This document shows, piece by piece, positions 3,947 through 50,177 of a DNA stretch of 64,000 nt (positions are counted from its first letter, which is position 1; each line of letters begins with the position of its first letter). Source of the DNA: Nonlabens ulvanivorans (GTDB lineage: Bacteria; Bacteroidota; Bacteroidia; Flavobacteriales; Flavobacteriaceae); NCBI RefSeq assembly GCF_000755285.1, contig NZ_BBMK01000009.1, positions 1-64,000 of the forward strand, written 5' to 3'. A model generated the notes under the pieces. It was not told where the DNA came from, did no database searches, and saw nothing but the letters and a program-made list of their open reading frames with translations. The translations under genes were made by a program, and so were the position numbers.

Positions 3947-4798
3947 CTACTCTGCTTTTTTTAATCGCTCAACCATTTCTAGTAAATAAGGTATAACTAG
4001 ATCTGGTCTTTTCCAGGCGATCTCGTGACCTAGATTTGGAATAGTAATCACCTCAACATTTGAAAAAACAGCCTTACTATAAATCACATTGATATAAGGC
4101 ACCAATTCATCACGATCACCATGAATATGCATTACAGGAACGTTGACCTTTGACCAGTCATTTTGTATAGACGCCAGTTCTTGTGCATGTACGGTTTTCT
4201 CATCTCCAGCCACTCGATAACCTGTAGGAACTAGCCAGCGCGTTAACCACCATTGTGTAAAGTCAGATTGCCATACTCGTTTTTCATGATCTGGATCTAT
4301 GGCTGGCGACACCATAACAACGGCTTTAATTTGATTATTTTCTATGGGTAATCTAGCAGCTACCGGACCGCCATAAGATGTACCTACGGCAATAACATTT
4401 TCTAAATTTAATTGATCAATAACCTCACTTATAACCTTAGTTTGAGTATCAATAGAGGTCATTTGTTTCCCAAAATCTGAATAACCATATCCTGGTCGAT
4501 CTACGGCATGTAGGTTGACTGTACCATGCAGTAAGCTGTCTTTAAGATAAGCTTGCCATGCTGTTAAGGAACTAGGCGATCCATGTAAGAAAACTATATT
4601 ATAATTGGTTTTTGCTTGCGTGACACTTTGCACACGTACATTCAAATCCATACTATCTACCTTAACATACGATATGGTGGTCTGTAAGTCCGCTTTCGCG
4701 AAAGCGGAATATATAGCATCATCAGGTAACCGATACTGTAGGCTTTTACAAGAACTAAGAAAAAGTAAACTTAGTAGTAAGAAAAATAGATGCCTCAT
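3947..4798 (-). CDS. Alpha/beta-hydrolase lipoprotein
   Basis: 283 aa with a lipoprotein signal (SLLFLSSC, Cys17). The alpha/beta-hydrolase core shows an oxyanion-type HGSPSS motif, the nucleophile elbow GTSYGG, a late acid in HGDRDELVP and the catalytic His in LGHEIAW. It is probably a periplasm-facing esterase or peptidase-like hydrolase; the substrate is unknown. One copy of the CGCTTTCGCGAAAGCG palindrome (4691-4706) is read as SAFAKAD just after the lipobox, in the linker before the folded domain. Confidence 0.85.
   Translation of the reverse strand: MRHLFFLLLSLLFLSSCKSLQYRLPDDAIYSAFAKADLQTTISYVKVDSMDLNVRVQSVTQAKTNYNIVFLHGSPSSLTAWQAYLKDSLLHGTVNLHAVDRPGYGYSDFGKQMTSIDTQTKVISEVIDQLNLENVIAVGTSYGGPVAARLPIENNQIKAVVMVSPAIDPDHEKRVWQSDFTQWWLTRWLVPTGYRVAGDEKTVHAQELASIQNDWSKVNVPVMHIHGDRDELVPYINVIYSKAVFSNVEVITIPNLGHEIAWKRPDLVIPYLLEMVERLKKAE
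4691..4706. repeat. CGCTTTCGCGAAAGCG palindrome (in coding DNA)
   Basis: Perfect 16-bp copy within the hydrolase lipoprotein gene. Confidence 0.95.
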
Positions 4799-36891: not shown

Positions 36892-39800
36892 TTATCGCTT
36901 CATAGCAAAATGACCGGTAGCGATGCCTTTTCTACCATCTTGCTCATACTCTATTTTAAACCAGTAATCTGAACTAGGTAATGGTTGTCCATTATAATTC
37001 CCATCCCATCCTGGACCAGTTGTGTCTAGTTGTTTTAATAACTTACCATATCGATCAAATATATACAGTGTTGTTACAGGTAAGCGATCAGCACCTATAA
37101 TATTCCACGTATCATGATAACCATCATTGTTAGGTGTAAAGTAGTCTGGATAACCGAAAACAAAGACCTCAACTATTATTTCACCACAACCAGAACGCTC
37201 TGCAATAGTTACATTATGTAATCCTGGTGATACGTTATTAAATATACCGTTATTGACATAAGGACCATCATCCAATCTGAACCAATATTCATCTGGTCCT
37301 GTAGCAGTAGCAATTATCTGATGATCTACTGCATAGGTTTCTGTTGTTACGTCAACACTATATGCTGTAGGAATACCTGATTGCCTCACATTAGTCGTAG
37401 TTGAATTATCACAACCAGTCGCAATGTTAGTAACGACTACTTCATAATCACCAGGCTCAATTGCATCGTGTGATGCGCTACTAGATCCTGAAATAACAGC
37501 TCCATTTAAAAACCACTCAAAGGTATAATCCGTGTTGTTCAAACCAGTATCTAGAACCTCTGGACCATTTAATAAAACTCCATTATTATCAATACATAAA
37601 ACGTATTGAGATAACAAGCTAGGTTGTGGTAATGAATCGATAATTAAATTTACAGTGGTAAAACTTACACAATCTGTATTATCGTCTTCTACTCTTATGA
37701 ATAAAGTAGTATCTGAACTGTATGTATAAGTGGATGCTACTGCGTTTGAATTATTATCGGCATCGGCTTGTGATTCATGATAACTCACAGTAACTCCTGT
37801 TTGAGTACCGATAACCTGTGTAGTAACTGGCACTAAATCTGCAATAGCATTTCCAGTACCGTCATCACAGTTGTTACATCTAAAGGCATTACAACCACTG
37901 GCGCAGCAACCGCATCTATGATAAAATCACCTATTGCATAACAACCAGAAGCATTAGTAAGTCTATAACTTATAGTTTGAGGATTTGCCGTATTAGAGTA
38001 AGAGTTTTCATCTAAAGCATTGTTATTATTTAAAGCATCTGCATCAGAAGCATAATATAATACGGTCACACCGGTCTGGCCATTTATAATTTCAGACTCA
38101 CGATCACTTAAAGAGAAAATCGCCACCGTATCACCATCTTCATCACATTCCTCAAGATTAGAAACTGTTGCTATAGCTGGAATAGCATCTACTATTAAAT
38201 CAAAACTAGTTGTGTTATAACATCCTGTATTAATGTTTTCTACTCTTACATAAATAGTTTCTGGCGAAGTTGTATTATCATAAGCGTCGCAATTGATGGT
38301 GTATCAGCATCTGCATTTGCCTGACTTGTATGATAGGTAAATATAAAATCTGCTGGTACAAGACCATTAAGAATTGCAGCCTCATTAAGAGTCAAGTCAA
38401 AATTCTCTACACCATCACCACTAGGGTCGTCACATAATTGTAAATCTCCAGCTGTAGCAATAGTAGGTGCTGGGTTTAATATTAAATCAAAACTAGTCGT
38501 CGTATAACAATCAGTATTATTAACATTTTCTGCACGAACATAAATTGTTTGTGGACTTGAAGTATTTCCATAGCTTAAAGCTAAAGAACCAGTGTCCGCA
38601 TCAGCATCTGCTTGTGATGCATGATAAGTCACTTCAACATCAGCAGGTAATTGTGTTCCTAAAACTGTTGCTGTTTGTGCAGATAAGTCGAATAGCTCAG
38701 TACCATCATTTGAAGAATCATCACACAATGTCATATCAGTAACCGGATTTGCAACAGCCGTAGGACTCACTTCAATATCAAAGGTACCCGTTGCATAACA
38801 ATTCATATTTCCATTAGGAGAAATCCTAACGTAAATTGTTTCAACAGGAGTTAATACATTGGTATAACTAGCAGGATTAGGAATGGACGCCGTATTCATA
38901 TCTGCATCCATCTGAGTATTATGATAAGTAATCGTGAAATCTGCTGGATTTTGAGTGCCTAAAATATCAGTTTCATTGCTTGTTATATTAAAAGTTTCAA
39001 AACCATCATTATTTGGATCATCACAAAGCATTATTGTCTGAGCTGTATTAAATACCGCTTGAGGATCTACTCTAATTAAAAATGAAGTTGTGTTATAACA
39101 TGTATCGTTAAGAATACTCTCAACACGAACGTATATAGTTTCTGGTCCAGTACCAGCGTTCATATAACCACTACTTGTTAAAGCACCAGTATCAGCATCT
39201 GCATCAGATTGTGAAATATGATAGGAAATATTAAAATCTGCAAGGCTTTGTGTGCCTAGCACCATACTATTTCTAGAAGAAAGTATAAAATTTGCTATAC
39301 CATCATTAGAAATGTCATCACAAGAAATCATATCCATAGGCATATTCGCCACAGGTGTAGGTGAAACAGTGATATCAAAACTTCCTGTATCATTACATGT
39401 GGCATCTGTAACACTTTCTATGCGTACATAAATGGTTTCTGCTGGTGTCTGCACATTTACATAACTAGTAGGATTAGGTATTTCATTGACTCCTGCATCA
39501 GCATCTAACTGACTTGTATGATAAGTAACCGTAAAATCCATAGCAGATTGACTACCCAATATTCCGGCCTCTTGCGATGTTAAATCAAAAGTCTCAAACC
39601 CATCATTACTAGGATCGTCACATAAATCTATATCAGGCACGGTATTATAGGTCGCGCTACCTACAGAGATATCAAACGACTCTACAACCACACACATAGT
39701 TGTGCTATCTGTAATTGCCGCATATATAGTTTGTGGATTTGATGTATTTGTATAAGCTGTAGGTGTTGTTATTGCTCCTACTCCATTCTCTGCATCCGAC

Positions 39801-41474
39801 TGTGTTAAGTGGTAAGTAATAGGAAAATCTATTGCTGCGAGACCATTTAATATCTCAACATCACGTGTCGTTAAATCTACCGTAGCAGCTGTTCCTGTAG
39901 GGTCACAAATGACAAATCCAGATGGAACACCATTAGTTATTTCTGGAAGCACAGTAATACAAACCGTATCAGTATAGGTACATCCAAAATTATCAATAAA
40001 TTCATAAGTATAACAATTCACACCTTCGATAGTAGGAGTTACTGTTATCGTACTTCCTACCGTATTAGTAATAGAGGCATCTGCTAGCCATTGCTCACTA
40101 GTCGCGTTAGGTGTAAATGATAAATCTGCTGGGATAATTGCTGGATTAAAATTAAGTCCCCCCCAATAAAATATATAACCATTATCAGACGACAAATTAT
40201 CTGTAATATTAATACACCATTGTCCATTAAGCGGTGTACCCACAAAGGTACTATAAGGATCAACGGGCAAATAATCACCTGCTGGCAAAGTAGTTACACC
40301 AGCCTGAGCTTGCGCCCAAGTTTGCGTTGCACTTTCTGTAAAAACATAATCAAATCCGGTACCTGGATTTAAATCAGTATCAACATCAATCGGAACTCCT
40401 AAAAAAGTCCCTCCACCACCACTTCCATAGGTGTGTAATGAAACTGTTGCTCCATTAGGCGCAGTAACTGATATATCTAAATCACCTAGATAAGAATGCT
40501 CCATATTTAAGAAGATATCTACTAGATCAGATGCGTTAGTCATCGTCGCTCCAGGTGGAAATAGATCAACGCTTACACAAGTTTGATAACTTGTTGTTCC
40601 ATTGTCATCTGGTAAAAATGTTCTACCAGTAATAGGTGGCGATGGCGTTATAGCAAATTCAATAGGCGTTACATTACCGTTAATATCAGTAGACTCTCCA
40701 TAACAGATGGTATTATCTACCGCTGCAGTTCCTGTAAAATCCGGATCTGTAGATACATGAACAACGACATCTCTAGATTCTCGATCAGAACAACCGGTTG
40801 CATCAGTAACTACAAAATCTATTAAATAAATACCGGAAGCGGTATAAGTTTCACTTTGAATTGCTCCAGCATTTAATCCTCCACCGTTACCTAAATCCCA
40901 TTCATAGGTAGCACCAGTTCCGTCGACACCAAAGGTTGCAGATCCATCAAAGTTTACAGTATCACCTTGACAAATACGAACAATACCATCTGCATCGGGT
41001 GCTGGTGTTGTTAAAATAGTAGTGCTAATCGCTTGACAAGGATCAAAACAACTTATCCCAGCTCTCCATCCTGCACCAGTACCACTACCATTAGAAGTAA
41101 AAGTTACGGTTAAACAACCCGTAGGATTTCCTGCGCTAGCCTGAAATAATCCTGGTGCGGTAGTCGTATTAGTAAAAGTTCCTAATTGCGGTGCTGCTGT
41201 AGAATCCCCCATCATAGATGGTTAACACATCTCCGGTTTGGATGATCATCTGTATAAAGTTGAGCTGCATCCTATCGGTCTGAATCCCTGGACAAAAAAC
41301 AGCATAACCATTTATGTTATTACTATAATCTCCATTCTGGCCATCATCATTAAAGGATCCACTACAGGTTACGAACCTGGTCGGGACACCATTATTATCG
41401 GGCATATTGATAATTCCTTGACCAGTGGCAAATAATCCTATAAAGATTATCGCAATTGTTAATAAATTTTTCAT
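36892..41474 (-). CDS. Giant secreted adhesin-like protein with T9SS type B sorting domain (frameshifted)
   Basis: About 1527 aa reconstructed from four pieces. Slips: G5 for G4 at 41216-41220, a lost base near 38284, and one near 37893. In order: signal peptide (LLTIAIIFIGLFATGQG); a CUB-like domain (VTCSGSFNDDGQNGDYSNN..VLTIYDG); a PKD domain (FDGSATFGVDGTGATYEWDLG); a proprotein-convertase P-like domain (MEHSYLGDLDISVTAPNG..GTPLNGQWCINI); eight ~95-residue repeats each opening with CDD..NDG and containing TYHxSQxDAD and ETIYVRVE; and a C-terminal type B sorting domain (YPDYFTPNNDGYHDTWNI..GHFAMKR). G7 at 40158-40164 gives YWGGLNFNP where the paralogue has EWGINFNP. Exported by the type IX system; probably a surface adhesin. 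Confidence 0.9.
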
Positions 41475-44461: not shown

Positions 44462-45420
44462 ATGTATTCATTAAAAGTTATCTGGAACCCATTAGAAGGG
44501 ATTGATCTAGGATTTTTTACCATTCATTTTTACAGTTTATCTTATGTCATTGCCTTTGTACTGGGCTGGTATATCATTAAACCAATTTTTAAACGTGATG
44601 GTGTAGGAATGGATAAGTTAGATCCATTGTTTATGTATACCGTTATAGGTTGCCTTGCTGGTGCGCGTATCGGGCATTATCTTTTTTATGAGACAAAAGT
44701 ACTTTTTAATGACCCATTACACGTTTTACTACCTTTTTCATTAGATCCATTTGAATGGACTGGATTTGCTGGTATGGCTAGCATGGTGCAGCATTAGGAA
44801 TCATCATAGCCATGTTTTTTTACAGTAGAAAACATTTAAAAAAACATATGTTTTGGGTATTGGACCGTATTGTAATCCCTACCGCAATAGGAGGAACTTT
44901 TGTACGATTAGGAAACCTATTCAATAGTGAGATTAACGGAAAGGAAAGTGGAGATTTCTGGGCTGGATTTAAATTTGTAAGAGATACATCAGATCCACAT
45001 GTGGCTGCCGCTTTACAAAAAACGGGCTATACCGATACGGATAAAGCAATTGATACAGTTGTAAATAATCCGCAATTTACGGAAGTTCTAGAGTCTATAC
45101 CTTTTAAACATCCTGCACAGTTGTATGAAGCCATATGTTATGTCGGTGTATTTGTGATTTTATTTCTGGTTTATTGGAAAACTGAGAAACGTCATAAATT
45201 AGGTTACTTATTAGGATTATTTTTTGTCTTACTATTTACGGTGCGTTTCTTTATTGAGTTTATCAAAGAACCTCAGACCGAGACTGATAGCTTTACCTTA
45301 ATAGGCATGCATTTCAATACAGGACAATTATTGAGTATTCCGTTTATACTGGTCGGACTCTTTTTAATGTTTAGTCCTAAAGGGCTATTCAAAAACCCAG
45401 AACCTAAAGCCCATGCGTAA
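44462..45420 (+). CDS. lgt: Prolipoprotein diacylglyceryl transferase (frameshifted)
   Basis: About 319 aa. Transfers diacylglycerol from phosphatidylglycerol to the lipobox Cys of exported lipoproteins, in the inner membrane. N-terminal WNPLEGIDLGFFTIHFYSLSYVIAFVLG, then GARIGHYLFYE, FAGMASHGAALGIIIAMFFYSRKH (one lost C near 44782 restores this; the pieces otherwise end at 44797 and restart at 44812), VIPTAIGGTFVRLGNLFNSE (lgt signature) and HPAQLYEA. Many lipoproteins in this window would be substrates. It overlaps the DUF192 gene by 8 nt. Confidence 0.9.
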
Positions 45421-45889
45421 TTCCATCTTTACTATTCTTATTGCTGCTATAGCACTTACAGGTTGTCGCGATGAAAAATCTGCTTCCTTAAGTACTGACG
45501 AAATCTCTTTCTCCAAAGAAGCTACAGGTTACTTGATCAAAAAAGCTACTCGAGATACTATACAAACTCTAGAGGTTGAAATTGCCGATACGGATTATGA
45601 TATTCAAACAGGATTGATGTACCGCACCAGCATGAATAATGATCAAGCGATGTTATTTGTTTTTAAAGAAGAACAAGAACTTTCTTTTTACATGAAGAAT
45701 ACGCAAATCGCTCTTGACATTATCTATCTTAAAGCAGATGGTACAATTGTAAGCTTTGTTGAGAACGCAAAACCTATGGACGAAACACTGTTACCTAGTG
45801 CTGGACCTGCACAATATGCCTTAGAAATAAAAGCTGGCCTTGCAGAAAAATGGGGACTGGATGTAGGTGATGTTTTTGTTTGGGAATAG
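45413..45889 (+). CDS. DUF192 family lipoprotein
   Basis: 158 aa. Lipoprotein signal IAAIALTGC (Cys ~18). The DUF192 domain follows: VEIADTDYDIQTGLMYRTSMNNDQAMLFVFKEEQELSFYMKNTQIALDIIYL with the conserved MYR and FWMKNT-type FYMKNT motifs. A small beta-rich secreted domain of unknown function found on many periplasmic proteins. Its start overlaps the lgt end by 8 nt, so it shares the cysS-yidD-lgt transcript or its lgt part. Confidence 0.88.
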   Translation: MRNSIFTILIAAIALTGCRDEKSASLSTDEISFSKEATGYLIKKATRDTIQTLEVEIADTDYDIQTGLMYRTSMNNDQAMLFVFKEEQELSFYMKNTQIALDIIYLKADGTIVSFVENAKPMDETLLPSAGPAQYALEIKAGLAEKWGLDVGDVFVWE

Positions 45890-46177
45890 ATTATAGAGTA
45901 TTACAGAAGTTTAAAAGGTATGCTATCACGCAGACCTTTTTTGTAAGCTATTGCGAAAAATTATACTCAACAATGTCTAATACATACCATTATCTTCACC
46001 AGACTCATGAACGTTGTTTATTAAAATTTAAGCATCTTGACTGTTTTTACATAAATTTGCAATAGTACTAGTTTCTAGTGATGATATGGCACTGTGGTTG
46101 TAATTATATCAAACAATCTCTCAAAAATAATCCTATTTATAGATCTAGTTTTAATTAACCTATGCCTTTTATAACAA

Positions 46178-46679
46178 ATGGAGCACCTTAAAAAAACTGT
46201 AAACACCTTTTTGATTCTAGCCTTATTAGCGCTCTGCGCTTGTAGCTCAGACAATGATAATGTAATAGAACAACAAGTAACCTGTAGTCACTTATCATCT
46301 ACCGCCGTACTTAATGGCGATACAGATTACTTTCTAAGATCAGTTGGCTATGAAGGAGATGTCAAAAAAAAATACACCATAGATGCAGTTAAAAGTGATT
46401 GTTCTGCAAGAAGTATTTTCATAATCACATTTGACTCAGATGTTGTTCCTGGCACATACCCAATCATAGACTCTTTGATCCCTAGCGCAAATACAGCAAT
46501 AGTCTATATCACCGATATTGACTCCAATGGGGGTGATTGTTAATGAGACCAATTTAATTAGTGGTATTGTAATTATAACTGGCAGCATATTAAACTTCGA
46601 CCTTACCGTTAATGGAGCGACCCAAAACGGAACGAACATTTCATTCATTACGGCACATGAGTTTAATACAAATAATTAA
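46178..46679 (+). CDS. Small lipoprotein (frameshifted)
   Basis: Signal LILALLALCACSSD (lipobox ending ACS, Cys ~22). The frame stops at 46543 after DSNGGDC. Changing the G5 at 46529-46533 to G4 continues it through VIVNETNLISGIVIITG and DLTVNGATQNGTNISFITAHEF to TAA at 46679, about 167 aa. The C-terminal part looks like a beta-rich domain. No family recognised. A terminator hairpin follows 67 bp later. Confidence 0.7.
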
Positions 46680-46745
46680 TTCCCAAAGATGTTTGAATAC
46701 AGCATATTATATGCAGTAGTAATTCATTCTTATATTTTATCCACA

Positions 46746-46778
46746 TAAAAGAGCCTCTCAAATGAGAAGCTCTTTTTT
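46746..46778. terminator. Hairpin between convergent lipoprotein genes
   Basis: AAAAGAGC / GCTCTTTT arms around CTCTCAAATGAGAA, T6 on the plus strand; part of a ~70-bp unit repeated at 47432. Confidence 0.75.
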
Positions 46779-46798
46779 ATATTCAGATGTCTGTAGTA

Positions 46799-46814
46799 TG
46801 CTTTCGCGAAAGCG
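46799..46814. repeat. Palindrome copy, 15 of 16 bases (intergenic)
   Basis: TGCTTTCGCGAAAGCG with the first base T for C; otherwise in GTAT..ATAC longer arms. Confidence 0.85.
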
Positions 46815-46900
46815 ATACTAGAATGGCATCCGATAAACCCAACCTGCAAGGTCTTTAATTTTTAAATGGATGTGTTTCAATATTTGAAAAAAAGATCTTA

Positions 46901-47404
46901 CTAGAAAAACATATTCTCATAAACCACCACGCTATTTTTTTCCAAATCAATAATCATACTATAGTCAGATGACCAATTTGATTCTAATTGACGATGAGTT
47001 TTAATGGCTTTCAAAAACAACTTTGGCTCTTCTAAATCTCTAAATTCTTTCACTTCCCAATCCTGCGAGAGCACAATAAAGAATGCGAGATATTCTTCAT
47101 CCTTTTCATAAAAGTAATACATAAACTCAGTTACAACCTCTCCACTTTCAACAACATAAACGAGTTGTGTAAAACAGAACTGATCGTTCAAAGAAGAGCT
47201 TATATACTCTTGTTCATTCAGAATTTCTAAACTGTACTGAAGGCTACTATTAAATTGTGATTTTAAATTATCATCTAAACCTTCAGCAGCAACTAGACCT
47301 CTTGCCTGCTCACTAACTTCATCTAAACGATCACATGGCACAGATTTTTCAAAACAACTTAATAGCATTAAGAAAGTAAAAAATATAGACGCCATTTTAC
47401 TCAT
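46901..47404 (-). CDS. Hypothetical lipoprotein
   Basis: 167 aa. Signal ASIFFTFLMLLSC, Cys ~17. The mature part is acidic, with helical N-terminal and beta-rich C-terminal stretches (QFCFTQLVYVVESGEVVTEFMYYFYEKDEEYLAFFIVLSQDW). No recognised family. It is bracketed by two near-identical ~70-bp terminator-palindrome units, at 46745 and 47432. Confidence 0.65.
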   Translation of the reverse strand: MSKMASIFFTFLMLLSCFEKSVPCDRLDEVSEQARGLVAAEGLDDNLKSQFNSSLQYSLEILNEQEYISSSLNDQFCFTQLVYVVESGEVVTEFMYYFYEKDEEYLAFFIVLSQDWEVKEFRDLEEPKLFLKAIKTHRQLESNWSSDYSMIIDLEKNSVVVYENMFF

Positions 47405-47433
47405 GAAATTTCTTTAATCTTAAAATGCAAAAT

Positions 47434-47466
47434 AAAAGAGCCTCTCAAATGAAAGGCTCTTTTTAT
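47434..47466 (-). terminator. Terminator region of the T9SS type B gene at 47517
   Basis: AAAAGAGCCT / AGGCTCTTTT stem around CTCAAATGAA; the sequence matches the unit at 46746. Confidence 0.75.
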
Positions 47467-47486
47467 AAATTCAGATGTCTTTGATA

Positions 47487-47502
47487 CGCTTTCGCGAAAG
47501 CG
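47487..47502. repeat. CGCTTTCGCGAAAGCG palindrome (intergenic)
   Basis: Perfect copy 15 bp from the end of the 47517 gene. Confidence 0.95.
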
Positions 47503-47516
47503 TAATTACTACATTA

Positions 47517-50177
47517 TTAATAATTGATATAAACCCAACTAGCTACATCTTCTGTTTCGGCATCGTTGTACTTAATTACATAGAAATACGTTCCTACCGG
47601 AAGAAGTCCATCGCCTGCTAATGCTCCTTTATTAGGTACACCGGCAAACTCTTCATAATTAGATGCTTTAGTTTCATAAACAATACTACCGTTTCTATTA
47701 AATACAGTTAATTCAAAATTGGGATATTGCTGTAAATTAGGAATAGAGAACGTGTCGTTAATTCCATCATTATTAGGTGAGAATCCTTCTGGTATCACTA
47801 CTTCACATACTTCAACAGTAATGTTGAATGAGGTGTAGTCAAAACATCCTGTAGCGTTGTCTGTAATACGTGCATAGATTGTTTCTTGATCTGTTGATGC
47901 ATAAGGCGAGCTTAATGCACTTGCTCCACTTTGTGCATTTGCCTCACTGTTATAGTAAGTAATCGTGTAGGCTGCTGCGCTCTGTCCATTTAATACTGCT
48001 GCGTCATAGTCTGCAAGTACTAGATCTAATTGATTTGTGATAGGATTAGTAGCACAATCAGACACGTCAGACACGACTCCTATCGCTGGAGCGCTTAATA
48101 CTTCTATATTAAATTGTCCTGTCTGGTAACAATCTTGATCTTGAGCGTTTGAAACACGAACATATATGGTTTCTGGATTAGAAACATTATCATATGCTGC
48201 TGGAGTTGTAATCGCTCCTGTATTAGCATCTGCATCTGCCTGACTATTGAAAAAGGCAATATTAAAGTCTGCTGATGACTGTGAACCTAATATGCCTGCA
48301 ATTTGAGATGTTAAGTCAAATGTCTCTACTTGATCTGCAGATAAATCATCACAAAGTTCAAGATCTGCAACGGTATTATAATTCACTTCTTGGAAAGTAA
48401 CATTTACTTGTTCTGTTTTAAAACAAGAATTCACGTTATCAAATACTCTTGCCCAAACCGTAGTACTAGTAGTAACCGCAAAAGTATCTGGTGTTAAAAT
48501 AGGGTTCATATTTGCTTGCGCATCTGCATCACTATTGAAATAGGTTACATCATAATCTGTAGCAACTAGGCCATTTCTGATTTCATCATCTTTGGCTGTT
48601 AAGTCAACCGTAACAGATCCTGTGTTTTGACAAACAATAATATCTGCTGGTTGAACACTTGTAATTTCTGGAGCCACATCTATACAAACTGTTTCAGTAT
48701 ATGTACAACCGAAACTGTCTGTTAATTCAAAATCATAACAATTTTGTCCTGCTGTAGTCGGTGTTACCGTTATATCTGAACCACTTGTATTAGTTATGTC
48801 TGGATTAGTCAACCATAGTTCAGTCACTTCTCCGGGCTCAAATCTTCCAGCCGCTGGTATAATCACAGGATTAAAATTAATTCCCCACTCAAAAATAAAA
48901 CCATTATCGCTTCCTATATTATCGACAATTGTAAGGCACCAAAGCCCATTAAGAGGTGTTCCAATAAATGCAGAGAAAGGATCTTCTGTTCTATAGTCAC
49001 CTGCCGGCAAAGTAGTTCCAAAACCTCCAGCGGCTTGAGCAAGAGTTTGAGTAGCTGTTGTTGCCTCAGTAAAAGTGTATATGAATCCAGTTCCAGGATT
49101 TAGATTTGTATCTACATCAATCGGCACACCCAAAAATGTACCTCCACCACCATTAGGATATGTAATTATTTGAATACTCGAACCATCTGGTGCTGTTAAT
49201 GATATATCTAAGTCACCTAAGTAAGAATGCTCCATATTTATAAAGAAATTCAATAAATCAGAAGCATTTTGAAAAGTTGAACCTGCAGGAAAACCAGTTA
49301 CATCGATACATGTTTGATAGGAAACTCCATTACCATCTGGTAAAAAAGTGGTACCAGCAATAGGTGGAGCTACATCTGCAACAAACTCAACTGTTTCTAC
49401 CATTCCTGTAATTATTGTTGATTCTCCAAAACAAATTGAAGTATCGGCAGCAAGAGTTCCAGTAAAATCTGGAGTCGTTGATACCTGGATCACTACGTCA
49501 TCAAAAAATCTATCTCTACAACCGTTAACATCAAATGTTACATAATCTGCTCTATAGATACCAGCATTTGGATATGATTTAGCTGCTGTATTACCCGCAA
49601 CAACAGTTCCATCATCAAATCTCCACTCACTAGTTGCACCAGTACCATCTACACTAAATACAGTAGTTGCTGAGAAATTTATCGTTTCACCTTGACAAAT
49701 TCTTGTAATTCCATCACCATCAGCTGCTGGAGTGGATGTCACAGTATTTGCTATTGTTTGACAATTATCAATACATAAAACAGCTGCTTGCCAGCCGTCT
49801 GCAACACCAGTAGCACCTGAAATAAATCTAAATGTCAAACAGTTAGTTGCGGAAGAAGTTATCAAACCAGGAACATTTGTAGCGCTATATACAGCAAGAG
49901 GACTACCTGTTGCCATATCTCCATCATAAACTAATAAAATATCTCCTACACCCAAATCCCAAAAAGTAAAATTTAAAGACATAAAATCAGTATCAAAAGG
50001 AGAACAGATTGTAAATATGGAGTTTTCGCTATTTTGATAATCTGCTGTTGGTCCACCAGAATCAGAAAAAGTTCCTGAACAAGTGACTATACTTCCATCA
50101 GCCATTGGAAAATCCTGAGCTGTCGCTATCGTGGCTGTAAACAACAAGCTTAAGGTTAAGAGTAATATTTTTTTCAT
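47517..50177 (-). CDS. Secreted adhesin-like protein with T9SS type B sorting domain
   Basis: 886 aa, intact paralogue of the giant gene at 36892-41474. Signal peptide LLLTLSLLFTATIATAQ; CUB-like region (VTCSGTFSDSGGPTADYQNS); PKD region (SATTVFSVDGTGATSEWRF); P-like domain (MEHSYLGDLDISLTAPDG, GTPLNGLWCLTI); three of the ~95-residue repeats (openings VCQNTGS, LCDDLSADQ, DCATNPI); and the type B domain (IPEGFSPNNDGINDTFSIPNLQQYPNFELTVFNRNG..WVYINY). It has EWGINFNP with G4 where the paralogue has G7. Probably a surface or released adhesin. Confidence 0.92.
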   Translation of the reverse strand: MKKILLLTLSLLFTATIATAQDFPMADGSIVTCSGTFSDSGGPTADYQNSENSIFTICSPFDTDFMSLNFTFWDLGVGDILLVYDGDMATGSPLAVYSATNVPGLITSSATNCLTFRFISGATGVADGWQAAVLCIDNCQTIANTVTSTPAADGDGITRICQGETINFSATTVFSVDGTGATSEWRFDDGTVVAGNTAAKSYPNAGIYRADYVTFDVNGCRDRFFDDVVIQVSTTPDFTGTLAADTSICFGESTIITGMVETVEFVADVAPPIAGTTFLPDGNGVSYQTCIDVTGFPAGSTFQNASDLLNFFINMEHSYLGDLDISLTAPDGSSIQIITYPNGGGGTFLGVPIDVDTNLNPGTGFIYTFTEATTATQTLAQAAGGFGTTLPAGDYRTEDPFSAFIGTPLNGLWCLTIVDNIGSDNGFIFEWGINFNPVIIPAAGRFEPGEVTELWLTNPDITNTSGSDITVTPTTAGQNCYDFELTDSFGCTYTETVCIDVAPEITSVQPADIIVCQNTGSVTVDLTAKDDEIRNGLVATDYDVTYFNSDADAQANMNPILTPDTFAVTTSTTVWARVFDNVNSCFKTEQVNVTFQEVNYNTVADLELCDDLSADQVETFDLTSQIAGILGSQSSADFNIAFFNSQADADANTGAITTPAAYDNVSNPETIYVRVSNAQDQDCYQTGQFNIEVLSAPAIGVVSDVSDCATNPITNQLDLVLADYDAAVLNGQSAAAYTITYYNSEANAQSGASALSSPYASTDQETIYARITDNATGCFDYTSFNITVEVCEVVIPEGFSPNNDGINDTFSIPNLQQYPNFELTVFNRNGSIVYETKASNYEEFAGVPNKGALAGDGLLPVGTYFYVIKYNDAETEDVASWVYINY

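Follow-up and report, generated by a model that had tools for sequence, protein, structure and literature searches.

Some islands at gene ends carry a replacement 3′ end, and cargo lying between two copies of the 3′ end of a gene is the layout left by such elements. DNA uptake sequences are asymmetric words that are read in one orientation. Copies of HIP1, the palindrome of cyanobacteria, are found both inside and outside genes. In Salmonella Typhimurium LT2, the orphan rhs-CT/rhsI modules are displaced gene ends that pile up by the main gene together with small immunity genes (PMC3967940). The uptake sequences of Neisseria are described in PMC2397512 as conserved, spaced like conversion tracts, situated in permissive parts of the core genome and often found in terminators.

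The locus considered here lies in a stretch of 64,000 nucleotides of the Nonlabens ulvanivorans genome (contig NZ_BBMK01000009.1), the whole of which is referred to as the window. An earlier note had described a terminator-plus-palindrome unit of about 70 bp, repeated on both sides of one lipoprotein gene. The two blocks, copy 1 (46745–46814) and copy 2 (47432–47502), were confirmed at these positions, with their parts in the claimed order and nearly the same bases: they are 89% identical (E 2.8e-19, BLAST). The features of the locus are as follows.

45413–45889, plus strand: DUF192 gene, left border of the variable site (Pfam PF02643, 1.3e-31)
45890–47431, no strand assigned: lineage-specific segment, 1.54 kb (GC 0.326 vs. 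0.354 for the window)
46178–46543, plus strand: small lipoprotein-like open reading frame, continuing in another frame to about 46680; no Pfam match
46747–46778, no strand assigned: terminator-like hairpin of copy 1 (minus-strand RNA, full stem with one wobble; plus-strand RNA, one mismatch)
46782–46792, no strand assigned: spacer TTCAGATGTCT of copy 1 (exact word search)
46799–46814, no strand assigned: palindrome of copy 1, with one outer mismatch
46833–46907, minus strand: relic of the last 25 codons of the 47517–50177 gene, ending ..KDLAGWVYRMPF and stop, where the live gene ends ..EDVASWVYINY and stop
46901–47404, minus strand: lipoprotein gene, 167 amino acids, of no known family, with a stop codon that falls within the edge of the relic
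47434–47464, no strand assigned: intrinsic terminator of copy 2 (folding and consensus scan)
47470–47480, no strand assigned: spacer TTCAGATGTCT of copy 2 (exact word search)
47487–47502, no strand assigned: palindrome of copy 2
47517–50177, minus strand: T9SS type-B sorted protein gene (CHU_C, PKD, P_proprotein), owner of copy 2 (PF13585, 1e-23; TIGR04131, 5.1e-11)

The order of the shared parts and the common spacer stand as described, and the exact word TTCAGATGTCT occurs at only these two places in the window. The palindrome, in contrast, is not identical in both, as copy 1 has one outer mismatch (TGCTTTCGCGAAAGCG), and the closing arm of the terminator, while present in both, does not have the same bases (GAGAAGCTCT vs. 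GAAAGGCTCT). The similarity of the copies runs beyond the palindrome into a coding end, i.e., the repeat is longer than the approximately 70 bp first noted. When the best 40 of 547 first-look BLAST candidates in the 3.09-Mb genome were scored, no third such block was found; the remaining matches listed among these 40 were at most 56 bp long and nearly all centred on the palindrome. A scan of a named collection with the unit gave matches in Nonlabens ulvanivorans PLR and in Flavobacteria bacterium BBFL7, and no Rfam family reached its gathering score in the window.

The minus-strand lipoprotein reading frame reported between the blocks is present and has a lipobox-like LLSC. Sequence searches, Pfam among them, returned no recognised family, and neither 58 other genomes (22 of them members of the genus) nor a genome-collection scan yielded a match or relative. 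Among 397 sampled genomes of the family, there was a single other match, of 34 residues in G380 (E 0.0085), which was rejected as a full-length relative: it covers residues 125–157 only, is 51% identical, and lies inside a frame of 218 amino acids. An AlphaFold model of the lipoprotein was dropped (mean pLDDT 46.5).

The relic lies between copy 1 and the stop codon of the lipoprotein gene, and gives an ungapped alignment with the final 25 codons of the T9SS gene next door, with 46 of 75 positions identical to the live copy and 50 of 75 to that of G021. Identity is 89% in the terminator–palindrome part vs. 61–67% in the relic, and drops to background at the lipoprotein stop codon. Because the duplicated stretch takes in the last 25 codons of the gene, the 70-bp unit is most simply read as the part of a longer duplicated gene end that has been kept best, and the proposal that the unit itself was what moved is not supported. 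In a control test run with 46815–46903, the score of the relic against the corresponding gene ends of G000 (the present genome), G011, G016, G005 and G021 was reached by none of 2029 other window segments and by none of 2000 shuffles. Against G002, the P values were 0.003 (segments) and 0.0005 (shuffles); against G009, G001, G006, G017, G004 and G013, the score was not above chance (P 0.15–0.93). Among the 14 sorting-domain gene ends of this genome, that of the neighbouring gene was the best for the relic (L123, P 0.0000), followed by L121 (P 0.0086) and L124 (P 0.0202), with P values of 0.09–0.94 for the other 11. The sorting-domain profile, run over all frames of the whole window, missed the relic (E 35), and the mismatches are not concentrated at third codon positions. 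When the relic piece was searched as DNA across the genus, its best matches (34 bp in G021, 39 bp in G013) were set aside as AT-rich chance matches in unrelated places, which are not T9SS gene ends. For these three reasons (the profile, the third positions and the chance matches of the free search), it is the DNA alignment, found where it would be expected, that carries the claim of a relic. As at a displaced gene-end locus, a truncated second gene end (the 25-codon relic and its 3′ flank) adjoins a complete gene.

Most of the window has a collinear counterpart in three relatives (G011, G016 and G002). Homology to these species ends at the stop codon of the DUF192 gene, where the alignments stop at 45890, and resumes at the edge of copy 2, at 47431 (at 47403 in G021). 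All three, together with G021, have one block each, at the place of copy 2 just behind the T9SS type-B gene, the block of G021 being more diverged (83%). Going by the sequence, copy 2 is the native one, as it closes the T9SS type-B gene and as a single block is found there in four relatives. Its palindrome is unaltered at the corresponding gene end of G011, G016, G002, G021, G006 and G001, has one mismatch in G005 and G009 and three in G013, and has no counterpart within four mismatches in G004 and G017. When the segment 45890–47431 was searched for in 23 genus genomes at E 1e-6 (15 candidates scored per genome), the copy-1 stretch alone was matched, by the blocks of G002, G011, G016 and G021 and by copy 2 of the same genome; the segment is confined to this genome among those examined. 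The suggestion that the repeats mark a past rearrangement is supported by these comparisons, in which the gene is unique among the 23 genus genomes (absent from 22 of the 22 others) and the four relatives have one block only. The pattern that would have spoken against this, with the gene and both repeats conserved in distant relatives, was not encountered. Excision by way of the repeats, which had also been suggested, is possible in principle, but the expected product is in no relative examined.

The stretch from the DUF192 stop codon to copy 2 is a variable site: in other Nonlabens species it carries displaced Rhs toxin tips along with small proteins, or a GIY-YIG gene, or hardly any sequence at all. 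The gap ranges from 137 bp to 7.7 kb in the 11 genus genomes with both borders measurable. Rhs cores are found at the site in G002 (three), G006 (two) and G005 (one), plus one at a contig-end piece of G021; GIY-YIG reading frames are found in G002 (two, one of them shorter), G011 and G016 (one each). Each Rhs core fragment of G002 has its own tip, followed by a small gene, and two of the three match the third, used as the query core, at 98.9 and 100% identity. The G002 site (L062, 1800–9700) presents three Rhs core fragments with different tips, small genes, and GIY-YIG reading frames between CTGTCATGCTGAA-type repeats. The Rhs cores of G002 had no match in the segment or in this genome, which is 87% complete. 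A faint match to the end of a G002 Rhs module was seen at 45937–45973 (84% of 38 bp, E 0.002).

Among reading frames of at least 80 amino acids in 45890–47431, there is no recombinase or transposase, only two small lipoprotein-like frames. Within 10 kb, genes seem to be split between frames at 44462–45420 (two pieces, presumably of lgt), at 36892–41474 and at 46178–46680; relatives of the split T9SS gene at 36892–41474 sit in a frame of 1535 amino acids in G011, G016 and G002. These split frames are possible assembly indel errors. The genome-specific lipoprotein sits at a site that holds Rhs modules in other Nonlabens, and from its place, orientation and size one might guess at an orphan gene of the immunity type, for or against which the sequence searches gave nothing.

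Copy 1 folds into the same hairpin as copy 2, although a consensus terminator scan called copy 2 (minus strand) and called copy 1 on neither strand. In full folding, the minus-strand RNA of both blocks forms a palindrome hairpin and a terminator hairpin (z −4.6 and −4.7). Because both blocks fold as minus-strand RNA, each minus-strand gene would own a transcript end.

The origin that we consider probable is that copy 1 is the stump of a second copy of the 3′ end of the T9SS gene, and that it belongs to a segment imported by recombination at a variable site. Copy 2 is the ordinary 3′ end of the 47517–50177 gene (stop, palindrome, spacer, terminator), and copy 1 would be a second such end (25-codon relic, stop, palindrome, spacer, terminator hairpin). 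The lipoprotein gene would occupy the place of the missing remainder of the second copy and, because it replaces this remainder, its transcript would end at the hairpin of the stump. We infer that the segment came by recombination with the 3′ end of the gene as the homology, and that the truncated second end was left over. The relic would have been worn since, and the terminator and palindrome would have been retained because they are functional. No donor or intermediate state was found.

The main rival to import is a tandem duplication in situ, in which the whole T9SS gene was doubled, the body of the outer one disappeared and the lipoprotein gene took up the vacated space, so that the repeat arose without imported DNA. 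The order and orientation of the parts fit such a duplication, and T9SS type-B genes recur nearby (36892–41474, 47517–50177). However, the stump is no nearer to the live copy of its own genome (identity 0.66) than to the copies of other species (0.65–0.67), a quick tree of six short sequences places it next to G021, with a long branch (support 0.916), and the entire 1.54 kb, beyond the repeat alone, differs from the relatives. Wear could blur each of these differences; tandem duplication is regarded as unlikely. Under both import and tandem duplication, the repeats are the trace of a past event, and the rearrangement is of an ordinary kind, with an explanation that fits it neatly.

Two copies in direct orientation could also be read as a small mobile or recombining terminator–palindrome element, inserting as a unit and able to excise the cargo between its copies. 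There is more than one terminator-plus-palindrome-like block at the site in G002 (three), G006 (both edges and the middle) and G013 (both edges), some of these with three to four palindrome mismatches, and the left and right blocks are alike above shuffles in G006 (40 vs. a maximum of 17) and G013 (28 vs. 16). Yet the left block of G006 is closer to the left block of G013 (64) than either is to its right partner, so that both look like the DUF192 gene's own end. Furthermore, the similarity of the two copies enters the coding sequence of one gene, the unit is found nowhere else in the 23 genus genomes at E 1e-8 (39 candidates scored per genome), and the palindromes keep their places across species, all of which renders such an element highly improbable. 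Insertion of an element with its own recombinase, bringing a replacement 3′ end, would fit the layout of cargo between two gene 3′ ends, but is very unlikely given the above-mentioned lack of a recombinase among the frames of at least 80 amino acids in the segment and given copies that differ by 11–39% along their length. Of the 66 intergenic palindromes in the stretches surveyed below, 32 have a terminator-like repeat no more than 80 bp away, vs. 20% of random intergenic points, so that two gene ends could each have acquired a common terminator and a common palindrome by chance or convergence. This is refuted in practice, as the spacer TTCAGATGTCT and the relic are also common to both ends and as the local alignment score of the copies is 55, against a shuffle maximum of 15. 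Import remains the preferred reading; the locus can be seen as the leftover of a gene end after rearrangement, which is easily mistaken for a mobile unit.

The palindrome itself extends far beyond this locus. The window has 13 matches with at most three mismatches, where 0.06 are expected, and GCTTTCGCGAAAGC has 487 copies in this genome. It was found in all 23 genus genomes (288–857 copies each) and in one of 36 other genomes (six copies), and a reversed-pattern control gave 0. In that sole positive outside the genus (G033:C18; L108, L109), all six copies are on one contig and the four viewed look coding; they are possibly DNA transferred from Nonlabens. The palindrome is perfect over 14 bp, with a symmetric TT/AA flank preference. 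CGCTTTCGCGAAAGCG occurs inside and between genes (e.g. at 4691, 6883, 11376, 16908, 25085, 28772, 36853, 42400, 54363 and 59514). In 11 stretches from eight genomes, intergenic DNA makes up 11% of the sequence but contains 66 of the 146 copies. These counts, and the terminator count given above, are not independent (the stretches share orthologous DNA) and use genes and terminators called by a simple script. In seven partial sets, the gaps between palindromes have a coefficient of variation of 0.30–0.69 (vs. 0.93–0.98 simulated), and they are more regular than random in six of the seven (P <0.02), the exception being G005 (P 0.07). The 688-bp pair formed by copies 1 and 2 is the shortest of the 45 gaps used for G000.

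The palindrome is intact at 36 of 37 alignable places in three near relatives (12-mer background 0.29–0.45) and at 12 of 14 in four far relatives (background 0.035–0.044), although in diverged intergenic flanks it may itself anchor the alignment. Places that could not be aligned are uncounted, i.e., 80733 in all three near genomes, 72763 in two of the three, and 9 to 13 of 14 other places in each of the four far genomes; the palindrome of copy 1 was excluded, because BLAST maps copy 1 onto the place of copy 2. The core is kept where the flanks differ. The 60 coding copies are distributed over all three frames (29, 17 and 14). Pairing in RNA is an unlikely purpose: flank complementarity was at or below expectation at most positions, being raised in the coding copies at position 5 (0.62 vs. 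0.49 expected) and clearly raised in 44 intergenic copies at position 3 only (0.55 vs. 0.34). A mobile palindrome was rejected on the conservation of positions, and the claim that the palindrome moves together with terminators failed likewise as a general rule, as relatives have it at matching positions, both within genes and in the DNA between genes. The regular spacing, the kept positions and the kept core therefore make it a DNA site that is fixed, selected or driven, rather than one carried along by terminators. Tentatively, TTnCGCTTTCGCGAAAGCGnAA may be a genus-wide Nonlabens signal, similar to an uptake or recombination mark or a site for a nucleoid protein, maintained every ~3.6–6.3 kb across the stretches surveyed, with a preference for the DNA between genes; on this reading, copy 1 and its terminator would have been rescued as the relic next to them decayed. 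Full-text searches found no published palindrome under CGCTTTCGCGAAAGCG or CTTTCGCGAAAG, nor Nonlabens with “uptake sequence”, and nothing apparently relevant, judged from the listings, was found for TTTCGCGAAA or for Nonlabens with “palindrom”. Hundreds of copies within a single genus, evenly spaced and strongly conserved in position, make the function of the palindrome testable, and it merits its own study.

In comparison with known systems, the site resembles the orphan rhs-CT/rhsI modules (PMC3967940) in that G002 has three Rhs cores with tips and small genes at the same site. The present locus differs from these modules in three respects: what was displaced is the end of a T9SS type-B gene rather than of rhs, no Rhs core was found in this 87% complete genome, and the lipoprotein belongs to no recognised immunity family. 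No toxin domain with a cognate immunity gene was recognised. The palindrome is like the DNA uptake sequences of Neisseria and Pasteurellaceae (PMC2397512, PMC7811141) in having hundreds of copies, specificity to a group, conserved positions, regular spacing and an association with terminators. It is unlike them in being a perfect palindrome without an asymmetric word and in having its host in the Bacteroidota; as a true palindrome, it has not been filed under uptake sequences. With HIP1 of cyanobacteria (PMC4390886), it shares the character of a short palindrome repeated throughout the genome, while being longer (a core of 14–16 bp), made of other bases, present in 288–857 copies per genome, and confined to one genus among those searched.
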